From Nitrosospira sp. Nsp2 (GTDB lineage: Bacteria > Pseudomonadota > Gammaproteobacteria > Burkholderiales > Nitrosomonadaceae), in contig NZ_QAOU01000001.1 of assembly GCF_003050965.1 (NCBI RefSeq), positions 248,001-312,000 on the forward strand: DNA of 64,000 nucleotides. The letters run 5' to 3'. The first letter of the stretch is position 1. Each line of letters starts with the position of its first letter. The notes under the pieces are model-generated. The model was given only the letters and a program-made list of their open reading frames with translations, ran no database searches and had not been told where the DNA came from. The position numbers were made by a program, and so were the translations under genes. Shown one piece after another: positions 17,833-22,073 of this stretch.

Positions 17833-18459
17833 ATGTCTGTTTTTCAGCACGCATCCTTTTACACTACCGTTAATCAGTTGCGGCAATTGCCGACGCCCGA
17901 TGGCGTGGAGATCGCCTTCGCCGGACGCTCCAATGCAGGTAAATCCAGCGCAATCAACTCGCTTACCAACCGCAGTCGTCTTGCTTTCGTCAGCAAGACG
18001 CCTGGACGTACCCAAAACCTGAATTTTTTCCAGTTGGGCCATGGCTTTTTGGTGGATCTCCCGGGTTATGGTTACGCTAAGGTACCCTCTGAAATTCGTC
18101 AGCATTGGGAACGCTTGCTCAGCACTTATCTTCAAACGCGGGAACCCCTTTACGGCATGGTCCTGATCATGGATGTGCGTCACCCGTTAACGCCGCTTGA
18201 CCGCCAGATGCTCGACTGGTTCGCGCCAACGGGAAAGCCGGTGCATGTGCTGCTTACGAAATCGGATAAGCTTTCCAGACAGCAGGCTCGAAAAACCCTC
18301 AGCCAAGTGCAGGCTTTGTTGCAGAATGCCTACCCGCAAGGCAGTGTACAGTTATTTTCCAGTTTAACGAGGGAAGGGGTGGAAGAAGCCGCGACCTTGC
18401 TCGGAACGTGGCTGGAGGAGAAAACCGATCCGGGAGAACTCGCTGACCTGAAAAAATAA
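17833..18459 (+). CDS. engB: Ribosome biogenesis GTPase EngB (YihA/YsxC)
   Basis: A 208-residue essential GTPase acting late in 50S subunit assembly. G1 is GRSNAGKSS at residues 31-39, the G2 threonine is in KTPGRTQ, G3 is DLPGYG and G4 is TKSDK. The gene ends with a lysine-rich AAA AAA TAA run that overlaps the A-tract of the structured spacer before hemB. It follows coaX by 71 bp. Confidence 0.95.
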
Positions 18460-18606
18460 AAAACCCCCGGTTAAAGGGGAATAAAACCGGGGGCAAACTA
18501 CCTTAATAGGGATTAAGGTAACCCGCTCAGGGAGGAAAAGCGGGAGACAATAAATAACGTCTGCAGGTAAGATAAAGATTTCGCGGACAAGTTCCCCCGG
18601 TTTTAT
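18451..18606 (-). ncRNA. Candidate small RNA or structured element in the engB-hemB spacer
   Basis: Three hairpins follow one another. In plus coordinates they are 18464-18472/18485-18493 (9 bp), 18499-18507/18512-18520 (9 bp, four-base loop) and 18522-18527/18539-18544 (6 bp). On the minus strand the loops read TTATTCCCCTTT, CCCT and TTTCCTCCCTG, all C-rich, and the last holds a perfect complement to GGGAGG. The final minus-strand hairpin runs straight into TTTTTTATTTTTT (18463-18451), the form of an intrinsic terminator, although engB and hemB are both on the plus strand. A 13-bp perfect inverted repeat (18481-18493 with 18594-18606) could form instead of the terminator hairpin. A TATAAA box on the minus strand (18607-18602) is a possible promoter element, without a clear -35. 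If transcribed on the plus strand, the same structure would be a hemB leader with G-rich loops. Confidence 0.45.
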
Positions 18607-18632
18607 ATATTTATCAATTTATTTCTTTTTAG

Positions 18633-19640
<1,008 letters not shown>

Positions 19641-19685: not shown

Positions 19686-22073
19686 TCAAGGGGACAGGAA
19701 CTCATTTATGATGTCTTCTACCGACTTCAGATGACCGTCCACCTTGTCCACTTTCTCCACCTTTTCCACCTTTTCCACCTTTTCCACCTTTTCCACCTTA
19801 TCCTCCGCTTCCGGGGGCAATTGCTCCTCCAAAAAATATTCCGTCAAGGTGCCGGCCGGTTCTCTCAAGCCCGTTTCGGGATTGATTTTCGCGGTTGCAA
19901 TTCCGGAAGGTGGCTTATAAACGGAAACCGGCATGCCTTTTAATGCTTGGCCCATATAGCTCATCCACATTGGCAAGGCGGCGTGACTCCCGGTTTCGTT
20001 ATTTCCCAGGGATTTGGGGTTGTCAAAGCCGATCCAGGCAATAGCGACCAAATCTCCTTGATAGCCGCAAAACCATGCATCCACATAATTGCTGGTCGTG
20101 CCTGTCTTTCCCGCCAGATCGGCACGACCGAGCTGTCGTGCTTTAGTGGCCGTGCCGCGCTGCACCACATCCTGCATTATGCTGGTCATGAGGAATGCAT
20201 TACGAGGATCAATGATTTGCTTCGCCCCCTCTCCCGCCAGCACGGGTTTTGCCTGTTCCAGGATGTTGCCTTTTTCATCTTCGATGCGTTGGATGAAATA
20301 GGGTGATATCCGGAACCCGCCATTGGCGAATGCCGCATAACCAATCGCCATTTGAATAGGCGTCACCGATCCGGCGCCCAGCGCCATTGTCAGATAGGGA
20401 GGGTGTTGCTTGGGGTCGAATCCAAAGCGGGCAACGTAATCCTGCGCATATTGAACGTCGATGGACTGCAGAATGCGGATGGAGACCAGATTCTTCGATT
20501 TCGCCAGCGCCTCGCGCATGCGCAATGGACCCTCGTAATTTCCATCATAGTTCCGCGGATCCCACTGCTCGCTTCCTGTTTCTTCGGCAGTGAAGGAAAG
20601 GGGTGCATCATTGATGACCGTTGCGGGCGTGAAACCCTTCTCCAGCGCGGCAGAATAGATGAATGGCTTGAAGCTCGATCCTGGCTGACGCCATGCCTGC
20701 GTGACGTGATTGAATTGGTTTCGGTTGAAGTCAAACCCGCCCACTATGGCACGGATCGCGCCATCCCGCGGATTCACCGCGACCAGTGAGGCTTCGACCT
20801 GAGGGAGCTGTATAATTTGCCACGCTCCCTTATCGTTTTTACGTATCCGGATTAATGAGCCCGGGCGAATATTCTGCTGGCCGGGGGCAGCTTTGGTAGT
20901 AAGAAATTTTTGCGCGAACTTGAGGCCATCTCCGCTGATCTCAACAATTTCTCCGCCTCTGCGATACGCCCGTACCAGCTTGGGATCTACGGCCAAGGCG
21001 ACAGCGGCGTGGATGTCACCGCTATCGGCCACTTCCTGAAGCGCATCTTCGAGCATCTCCTCCCGATCGGCGCCGTTTTTCGATAAATCTATCACCGCTT
21101 CGGGACCGCGGTATCCGTGACGCCGGTCGTAGTCCATTACGCCCTGACGCACTGCTTTATAGGCGGCTTCCTGATCCGATCGCCGAATCGTGGTATAGAC
21201 TTTAAAACCTTTGCTATACGTATCGTCCTGATGGCGTTCGAAAACTGCCTGACGCGCCATTTCCGCCACATAGTCCGCGCGCATTCCAAATTCCTGTGAC
21301 TCGCGCTTCACCTGTATCGGTTGTTTTTCCGCTCCTTTGAACTCTTCGCTGGGGATATAGCCAAGGTCATTCATGCGCCTGAGGACGTAGAGTTGGCGTG
21401 TCTTGGCGCGCTTGGGATTGACTACGGGGTTGAAGCGCGACGGCGCTTTCGGCAGACCTGCGAGCATCGCTGCTTCCGCGAGATTAATGTTATTCAGCGA
21501 TTTTCCAAAATAGACCTGCGCGGCGGCGGCAAAACCGTAAGCTCGCTGCCCCAGATAAATCTGATTAAAGTAGAGTTCGAGGATTTCGTCCTTGCTCAAG
21601 CTATGTTCGATCTTGAAGGCAAGCAAAGCCTCGCTGAATTTTCTGGTTAAGGTTTTTTCCTTCGTCAGGAAAAAATTACGCGCGACCTGCATAGTGATCG
21701 TGCTGGCTCCCTGCCGTACGCCGCCGGAGGTGAAATTGGAGTAGGCTGCGCGCAGTATGCCAATGTAATCCACCCCGCCATGCTGGTAGAAACGATCGTC
21801 CTCCGCTGCAAGGATGGCCTGCTTGAGGCGCTGGGGAGCCGCGCCGATTTTTACCATTTCCCGCCGTTCTTCACCGAATTCGCCTATGAGGATCCCTTCT
21901 GCGCTGTAAACGCGCAAAGGAATTTTGGGGCGATATTCGGTCAGGGCTTCCAGCGACGGAAGGGTGGGAATCGTAACCAGAGCGGCGAAACCGGTCAATA
22001 AAACCGCGAGAAGACCCAGTGCGGAAACAGCAGCGAGAAGATAAATCCACCAACGCGCTAGCATGTCTGGCAA
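19686..22073 (-). CDS. mrcA: Penicillin-binding protein 1A (bifunctional PBP)
   Basis: A 795-residue class A PBP that polymerises and crosslinks peptidoglycan. One N-terminal membrane helix (about residues 10-32) precedes the GT51 transglycosylase domain (AAEDDRFYQHGG, with the catalytic Glu). An OB-like insert follows. The transpeptidase has the active serine in PGSSFKPF and the KTGTT motif near residue 655. After the transpeptidase domain the protein ends in a low-complexity tail of (V-E-K) triplets coded by a 9-bp tandem array at 19737-19803. Charged tails of variable length are tolerated in PBP1A, but a perfect array is unusual. Confidence 0.95.
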   Translation of the reverse strand: MPDMLARWWIYLLAAVSALGLLAVLLTGFAALVTIPTLPSLEALTEYRPKIPLRVYSAEGILIGEFGEERREMVKIGAAPQRLKQAILAAEDDRFYQHGGVDYIGILRAAYSNFTSGGVRQGASTITMQVARNFFLTKEKTLTRKFSEALLAFKIEHSLSKDEILELYFNQIYLGQRAYGFAAAAQVYFGKSLNNINLAEAAMLAGLPKAPSRFNPVVNPKRAKTRQLYVLRRMNDLGYIPSEEFKGAEKQPIQVKRESQEFGMRADYVAEMARQAVFERHQDDTYSKGFKVYTTIRRSDQEAAYKAVRQGVMDYDRRHGYRGPEAVIDLSKNGADREEMLEDALQEVADSGDIHAAVALAVDPKLVRAYRRGGEIVEISGDGLKFAQKFLTTKAAPGQQNIRPGSLIRIRKNDKGAWQIIQLPQVEASLVAVNPRDGAIRAIVGGFDFNRNQFNHVTQAWRQPGSSFKPFIYSAALEKGFTPATVINDAPLSFTAEETGSEQWDPRNYDGNYEGPLRMREALAKSKNLVSIRILQSIDVQYAQDYVARFGFDPKQHPPYLTMALGAGSVTPIQMAIGYAAFANGGFRISPYFIQRIEDEKGNILEQAKPVLAGEGAKQIIDPRNAFLMTSIMQDVVQRGTATKARQLGRADLAGKTGTTSNYVDAWFCGYQGDLVAIAWIGFDNPKSLGNNETGSHAALPMWMSYMGQALKGMPVSVYKPPSGIATAKINPETGLREPAGTLTEYFLEEQLPPEAEDKVEKVEKVEKVEKVEKVDKVDGHLKSVEDIINEFLSP
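19737..19803 (-). repeat. 9-bp tandem repeat coding the C-terminal tail of PBP1A
   Basis: In plus orientation about seven head-to-tail 9-bp units of the form TTCCACCTT are seen. The central four are identical and the outer ones carry single changes. Each unit encodes one V-E-K or V-D-K triplet. Units of three codons keep the frame, so slippage would change tail length without breaking the protein. Confidence 0.9.

Follow-up and report, generated by a model that had tools for sequence, protein, structure and literature searches.

An anti-hemB RNA beside engB in Nitrosospira sp. Nsp2 has a conserved sigma-E-type promoter and may share an origin with ErsA and sX13

In Burkholderia cenocepacia the anti-hemB RNA (RF02837; Burkholderia RNA 7) is ncS04, reported as a 105-nt transcript whose 3' end was confirmed by RACE and dRNA-seq and which the legend of Fig. 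6 lists among its Northern membranes (PMC5688073). Its co-purification with Hfq is listed in another report, where its neighbours are given as BCAL0264 and BCAL0265 in the orientation <- -> <- (PMC4603805). According to the 2017 data, Rfam hits of the candidate RNAs gave no functional information, ncS04 did not change significantly in any of the seven tabulated conditions, and short stress exposures, SDS included, were largely without sRNA induction (PMC5688073). We found no function for the anti-hemB family in the literature searched.

Three other described RNAs are encoded beside polA. sX13 (RF02232), of Xanthomonadaceae, is reported downstream of polA in Xanthomonas and represses through C-rich loops directed against G-rich motifs near starts, independently of Hfq; its authors draw a parallel at the polA locus with Spot 42 and alpha-r7, the remainder being left open in the text available (PMC3771888). 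ErsA (Pseudomon-1, RF01719), of Pseudomonas, lies in the polA-engB spacer of P. aeruginosa (PMC8575079), is driven by AlgU/sigma22 and is reported to repress algC with Hfq (PMC8395346). It is also described as repressing oprD and as activating amrZ and anr, through base pairing in which its U-rich domain takes part (PMC8395346, PMC5819304, PMC8575079), and a review presents it as a functional orthologue of Spot 42 (PMC8395346). Spot 42 (RF00021; spf of E. coli) lies between polA and yihA (that is, engB), in the sense of polA and convergent to engB. No Rfam clan is shown for RF02837, RF02232 and RF01719, and in the full-text literature searched we found no link between anti-hemB, sX13 and ErsA, which may exist in subscription papers.

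Here we describe an element between engB and hemB of Nitrosospira sp. Nsp2 that belongs, as a new member, to the known anti-hemB family. The window, by which we mean the whole stretch of 64,000 nt that was analysed (contig NZ_QAOU01000001.1, 248,001 to 312,000), matches RF02837 on the minus strand at 18456..18547 with 77.0 bits in cmscan (cut-off 49.5) over model positions 1-81 of 81, the Rfam-defined core of three hairpins and terminator. The only other Rfam match above cut-off in the window is a tRNA. A sequence-only reading of this DNA had raised a possible relation to a computationally described hemB motif of Burkholderia and proposed a search with the published model; that search returned the same family, at full length and above cut-off. 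Two models of our own, both with the window sequence in their training sets, score it at 103.4 bits (R1, built from 18 sequences, 12 from the window's family and six class loci) and 89.4 bits (R2, described below). Two stem-loops followed by an intrinsic terminator, with covariation in the stems, are present as in RF02837 and ncS04, and nothing essential departs from the family consensus, hairpin 3 having a longer loop in the window. From the name and description of the family we take it that a member should lie near hemB on the opposite strand, and the window RNA does so. Its arrangement is also the <- -> <- given for the reported neighbours of ncS04.

Hairpin 1 (18522..18544, minus strand) presents, in the window sequence and its fold, the anti-Shine-Dalgarno loop UUCCUCCCU, in which CCUCCC (18530..18535) is a near-invariant candidate seed by column identity in two alignments (A3 and A5, below). 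Hairpin 2 (18499..18520, minus strand) has perfect arms of 9 nt (18520-18512 / 18507-18499) around the loop CCCU, and hairpin 3 (18464..18493, minus strand), the terminator stem, has perfect arms of 9 nt (18493-18485 / 18472-18464) and CCCC in its loop. Hairpin 3 runs into the U-tract TTTTTTATTTTTT (18451..18463, minus strand), recognised from the sequence and a terminator-like site prediction, which shares the last 9 bases of engB (18451-18459). The folding energy of the 105-nt minus strand is -37.9 kcal/mol, whereas 200 dinucleotide shuffles average -20.2 (sd 2.9) and none of them folds equally well (z -6.2; 0/200). The three minus-strand hairpins and the minus-strand terminator of the sequence-only reading are thus borne out in sequence and fold, and both flanking genes lie on the plus strand as it had stated: engB (yihA/ysxC; 17833..18459), the convergent neighbour, is a GTPase gene recognised as an open reading frame with a match to E. 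coli yihA-type genes, and hemB (18642..19640), the divergent neighbour, is an open reading frame identified from reading of the protein. Beyond hemB lies a minus-strand gene, PBP1A-like by eye, whose product has consecutive VEK repeats close to the C-terminus (VEKVEKVEKVEKVEKVDKV, 19686-19800).

The genome of the window holds one copy of RF02837. In its family, 113 of 125 genomes match the model at E<=1e-3 (89/125 above cut-off), and in the wider class 168 of 369 do so, only 21/369 above cut-off. Below-cut-off matches also occur in 3 of 14 control genomes, so that the score alone is no proof, and position and promoter were used as independent checks. The class genomes are, we infer, Gammaproteobacteria in the wide GTDB sense, since full-score matches to ErsA (121.3 bits) and sX13 (up to 124.5 bits) are found among them. 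Tandem copies of the RNA were seen in Nitrosospira briensis (two, L063:2197-2411), in the genomes G171 and G279 (contig C8; four or five) and in G263 (C3; four). The anti-hemB model matches four tandem copies at C33:13148-13886 of G171; the sX13 model also hits one of these, and the ErsA model a different one.

R1 was applied to 80 named loci (80 of 556 relatives), which had been retrieved through the hemB protein that they encode. Alignment A3 holds 57 distinct rows of named relatives, A5 78 rows, and A4 101 distinct rows from class loci plus ErsA and sX13 loci. MAFFT with RNAalifold on 49 mixed sequences had misaligned hairpin 1 and recovered the terminator only (7 pairs), and R1 was used instead. 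In A3, which like the other alignments was fitted to the minus-strand model and hence leans towards it, pairing holds in 96.0% of the cells and both partners vary in 20 of the 23 pairs; two-sided changes number 228 cells, against 53.6 in shuffles, and the covariation score falls from 0.522 to <=0.113 when partners are slid by 1-3 columns. In A4 all 23 pairs change on both sides (648 cells versus 199 in shuffles). The stem of hairpin 1 is 98.0% paired over the relatives, with changes on both sides in five of its six pairs, and in A3 covariation extends to 8/8 pairs of hairpin 2 and 7/9 of hairpin 3. Covariation in relatives had been set beforehand as a check, and the compensatory changes of A3 and A4 are what it looked for. 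Read as minus strand, G-U cells outnumber A-C cells (56 versus 7 in A3, 46 versus 17 in A5), which supports the minus strand as the RNA. With the full-length RF02837 match and the strong stem covariation, this sustains the proposal of a minus-strand sRNA.

The CCUCCCU columns of loop 1 have an identity of 0.98-1.00 in A3 and 0.99-1.00 in A5, and the stem columns average 0.77 and 0.67. Loop 1 is the most conserved part of the RNA and, being near-invariant while the stems vary, looks like a base-pairing seed. Its letters, CCUCCCU, resemble the anti-Shine-Dalgarno of 16S rRNA. Loop 3 contains CCC in 45 of 57 rows of A3 (shuffle mean 19.1) and in 68 of 78 rows of A5 (45.0). For loop 2 the count is 59 of 78 rows in A5 (37.5 in shuffles), and among the named relatives this loop is not kept C-rich, with CCC in 12 of 57 A3 rows at a shuffle mean of 9.2. 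Of the earlier suggestion that C-rich loops block ribosome-binding sites, the part concerning loop 1 fits its conservation as a candidate, but the CCCU loop of hairpin 2 is unconserved among the named relatives.

The spacer could instead act on the plus strand, as a structure in the hemB leader with G-rich loops of the CsrA/RsmA type, as had also been proposed, or by attenuation through a 13-nt inverted repeat. The plus strand of the engB-hemB spacer does fold better than shuffles (z -3.0), and the repeat (18481-18493 / 18594-18606), made of a terminator arm and bases at the -35 box, is perfect. However, the excess of G-U over A-C cells is that of the minus strand, the structure is present in class loci without a nearby hemB, and the repeat is by eye restricted to the window's species among 22 aligned spacers, a second conspecific genome being one G short. 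We consider a plus-strand leader structure very improbable, and the CsrA-like site is left unsupported. The inverted repeat, which is by eye not common to the other aligned spacers, was set aside both as an attenuator and as the remnant of a tandem copy.

In 60 of the 80 named hemB loci the RNA lies near hemB, and in every one of them the two are on opposite strands. The 80 loci comprise 57 with engB and the RNA, three with engB and no RNA, three with the RNA and no engB found, and 17 with neither. The genomes of 17 of the 20 RNA-less loci (all except L123, L124 and L125) were searched, and a match was found at another place in 14 of them; engB is present in three of the loci so obtained (L242, L252 and L253), and in L252 it lies upstream of the RNA and reads the same way. 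In four Methylophilaceae loci (L243, L245, L248 and L249) the RNA was seen away from engB, divergent from a UvrD/Rep-type helicase gene (by eye), and L244, L246, L247, L250 and L251 are likewise RNA loci without engB. L254, the weakest match, stands among phage-like open reading frames (by eye) and is probably false.

In the wider class, 165 genomes outside the window's order have a match, and 87 loci from their better-scoring part were compared: 27 supplied directly by the search and 60 drawn down a score-ordered list, with some rows skipped in the last 20. Seventy-five of these loci lie beside engB and/or polA, the neighbourhood in which Spot 42, ErsA and sX13 are also encoded. In 71, engB is convergent downstream and/or polA lies upstream in the same sense (both in 35), engB being convergent in 56 of the 87; four lie in the engB-polA spacer with the RNA reversed, and 12 show neither gene, three of these on shortened stretches. 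The reversed loci (L158, L165, L169 and L180) have the RNA between engB and polA, reading the way of engB. In the fetched stretches of all 87 class loci, hemB was absent (tblastn, E<=1e-5). As position was no part of the search, it provides independent evidence that the sub-cut-off matches, down to 33 bits, are mostly real, and the RNA is linked to engB more than to hemB.

This linkage bears on whether the RNA is a cis-acting antisense regulator of hemB, pairing with the hemB leader or interfering with it by transcription. Such a role would suit its divergence from and closeness to hemB, always on the opposite strand, in the 60 named loci, and its promoter may overlap that of hemB, with a weak promoter-like site of the plus strand at 18584-18611. 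But the start placed at about 18561 is some 80 nt before the hemB ATG and reads away from hemB, the RNA follows engB in the named loci (57/80 together, three engB without the RNA), and hemB was found at none of the 87 class loci. A cis-acting role at hemB therefore seems improbable to us.

Upstream of hairpin 1, on the minus strand, an exact pattern match gives GGAACTT-N16-TCTTA at 18568..18595 (-35 box 18595-18589, -10 box 18572-18568), which is also visible by eye in the alignment of 22 spacers. Its shape is that of RpoE/AlgU promoters. With the start placed about 7 nt after the -10 box and the end in the U-tract, the predicted full transcript covers 18451..18561 of the minus strand, about 105-111 nt, and folds to -40.6 kcal/mol (z -6.5). 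Of 60 named relatives, which are not independent of each other, 56 have GAACT-N15..19-TC at a distance of 43-52 nt from the RNA core (hairpin 1), on its upstream side; mononucleotide shuffles of the upstream sequences gave 0.5 of 60 on average and never more than 4. The strict form ending in TCNNA is found in 47/60 named relatives and in 45/87 class loci (shuffle mean 0.19, maximum 2), and GAACT alone stands at the promoter place in 64/87 class loci, against 2.7 in shuffles, these counts too coming from relatives. Genome-wide the pattern is not enriched in the window's genome (17 matches versus 18 for the reversed control) and was rejected as evidence in that form; it is the constant position of the conserved motif that makes the case for a promoter. 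The genome encodes RpoE (TIGR02939, 327 bits, cut-off 236), and the region upstream of rpoE has by eye a similar TGAACT-N17-GTCTCT. These data suggest envelope-stress control of the anti-hemB RNA through a sigma-E-type promoter.

Conservation of this kind also concerns the reading that the element is a mere terminator, for engB or for leftover antisense transcription, with no regulatory RNA. There is a hairpin directly behind the engB stop codon, but the plus strand has no U-run after it; a terminator would not need the conservation seen in hairpins 1 and 2, in loop 1 and in the promoter, and ncS04 is described in Burkholderia as a discrete 105-nt transcript (PMC5688073). We give this reading next to no credence.

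A further possibility is that the RNA acts in trans but is transcribed with the housekeeping or another ECF sigma factor, outside the envelope-stress response, GGAACT serving something else. The four of 60 named relatives without the motif, which read GAACC, and the 42 of 87 class loci without the strict form are consistent with it, as are the sX13 loci L214-L216 and L217, which have no GGAACT promoter in the form used here. The unchanged level of ncS04 in the seven tabulated conditions (PMC5688073) points the same way, and counts against our preferred reading, since a sigma-E-driven RNA might respond. On the other hand, the distance of the motif is fixed across distant relatives, ErsA is reported to be sigma22-dependent (PMC8395346), and the ErsA-type locus L202, with polA upstream, has a GAACTT...TCATA motif before its RNA. 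We think transcription by another sigma factor unlikely, while giving it some weight.

Family membership, covarying structure, support for the strand, a conserved sigma-E-type promoter and the invariance of loop 1 are observed at this locus and its relatives. The reading that we prefer, and consider probable, is a trans-acting anti-hemB sRNA, driven by RpoE, whose C-rich loops block ribosome-binding sites under envelope stress, probably with Hfq. RNA polymerase with RpoE would start the minus-strand RNA near 18561, and transcription would end at the terminator by 18451, giving an RNA of about 105-110 nt. The C-rich loops, above all CCUCCCU of loop 1, would mimic the 16S rRNA anti-Shine-Dalgarno and base-pair at G-rich ribosome-binding sites, Hfq probably assisting, and the translation of a set of mRNAs would be lowered when the envelope is stressed. 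By analogy with parts known from ncS04, sX13 and ErsA, we take the window RNA as a putative sigma-E-driven repressor at ribosome-binding sites; an RpoE-dependent start, binding by Hfq in this strain and repression of targets are inferences. An Hfq gene is present in the window's genome, and the Hfq-independence of sX13 counts against an Hfq-assisted mechanism.

Candidate targets were scanned for as AGGGAGGA-N3..9-ATG, with the reversed motif as control. Loop-1 complements before ATG are not enriched in the window's genome (6 versus 8 in the control). Over 23 genomes of the genus there are 237 sites versus 118 reversed controls, an excess that is as expected of any Shine-Dalgarno-like motif. 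Seventeen sites (six from the own genome and 11 chosen from relatives, mostly for their recurrence) encode mixed proteins by eye and show no conserved target set; one of them, L294, belongs by eye to glucose-6-phosphate dehydrogenase and recurs in other relatives, not in the window's genome. With mixed proteins and 6 versus 8 in the own genome, no target assignment was drawn from these sites.

Several loci are matched by more than one of the curated models. L028 is matched by three, at 47.7 (anti-hemB), 39.5 (sX13) and 22.7 bits (ErsA), all below cut-off. Among 13 genomes with an ErsA match, at least 7 (G171, G291, G267, G064, G309, G156 and G055) have it where anti-hemB also matches, and the same holds for at least 3 (G171, G082 and G234) of the 15 with an sX13 match; in others the sX13 match lies elsewhere in the genome. 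Model R2 was built from 78 anti-hemB-type sequences, with no full-score ErsA or sX13 locus among them but with loci that those models score weakly. With E-values that are rough for our own models, it recovers L214-L216, which are sX13 loci, with E between 8.7e-7 and 1.2e-5, and the intermediate L217 with E 5.4e-9, the latter match including loop 1 (CCUCCCUGA); the ErsA-type locus L202 is a weak match (24.6 bits, E 1.3e-4). Across 26 sources R2 gave no match at E<=1 for L140, L141 and L225 and only E 0.23 for L222, and across the class it matches 170 of 321 genomes at E<=1e-3, training genomes included, these E-values being equally rough. In L214-L216 and L202 the match covers hairpins 2 and 3, the inner hairpin 1 being unaligned, and the likeness of these loci may therefore be a convergence of GC-rich triple hairpins; their position adjacent to polA is independent support for a relation. 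L205 (matched by R2 and the ErsA model), L217 and L220 (R2 and the sX13 model) are polA-adjacent RNAs below the Rfam cut-offs, perhaps further unnamed sub-families.

The sigma-E-type promoter 43-52 nt before hairpin 1, the linkage to engB, the overlap of the ErsA and sX13 models, and the covarying stems with a near-invariant CCUCCCU loop were not found in the searched literature. The promoter and the link to sX13 and ErsA give the anti-hemB family a likely trigger, a likely mechanism and tests, and these two, with the engB linkage, are the parts worth following. The 75 of 87 class loci beside engB or polA bear on the question, put by the sX13 authors in the text available, whether similar sRNAs occur at the polA locus of other bacteria (PMC3771888). 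The anti-hemB RNA may have a common origin with the sRNAs of Pseudomonas (ErsA) and Xanthomonas (sX13); if so, ammonia oxidisers, pseudomonads and xanthomonads would all have kept one envelope-stress sRNA, and comparing the lineages could reveal its targets.

Set against the known systems, the window RNA is closest to ncS04, with which it shares the family, and resembles each of the others in part. As in sX13, there are three stems with C-rich loops in the window sequence, loop 2 not being C-rich among the named relatives; as in ErsA, a motif of the sigma22/sigma-E type precedes the RNA and is conserved, which would fit a promoter of that kind. Neither RF02232 nor RF01719 matches the window at E<=1 in 18300-18800 (cut-off 50 for each). 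ErsA itself differs in its reported length of 132 nt and its U-rich, unstructured target-binding domain (PMC8575079, PMC5819304). RF02278, the Betaproteobacteria toxic small RNA (NcS27/bdhR1; relatives of Bordetella S17), has two hairpins and other loci, unlike the window RNA, and matches weakly at 18457-18549 (25.8 bits, cut-off 50); as it also uses C- and U-rich unpaired stretches, which pair with ribosome-binding sites as predicted or shown in the reports available, a distant common origin is possible. Like Spot 42, the window RNA stands at engB and is convergent to it. RF00021 gives no match in the window (cut-off 80) and is found in 1 of 369 class genomes, below cut-off, while the best R2 match to Spot 42 has 12.3 bits and a rough E of 0.057 with filters off, and nothing appears with default filters; as a sequence homologue Spot 42 was rejected for now. 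On balance we think it likely that anti-hemB, sX13 and ErsA are one ancient sRNA gene beside engB and polA across Beta- and Gammaproteobacteria, which would have had, ancestrally, a sigma-E promoter and three hairpins with C-rich, anti-Shine-Dalgarno-like loops. The absence of hairpin 1 from the match to genuine sX13 and ErsA loci makes this somewhat less likely than it would otherwise be. The lineages would have received separate names because each curated model is too narrow, and Spot 42 would be a replacement or a strongly diverged form of this gene in the E. coli lineage.
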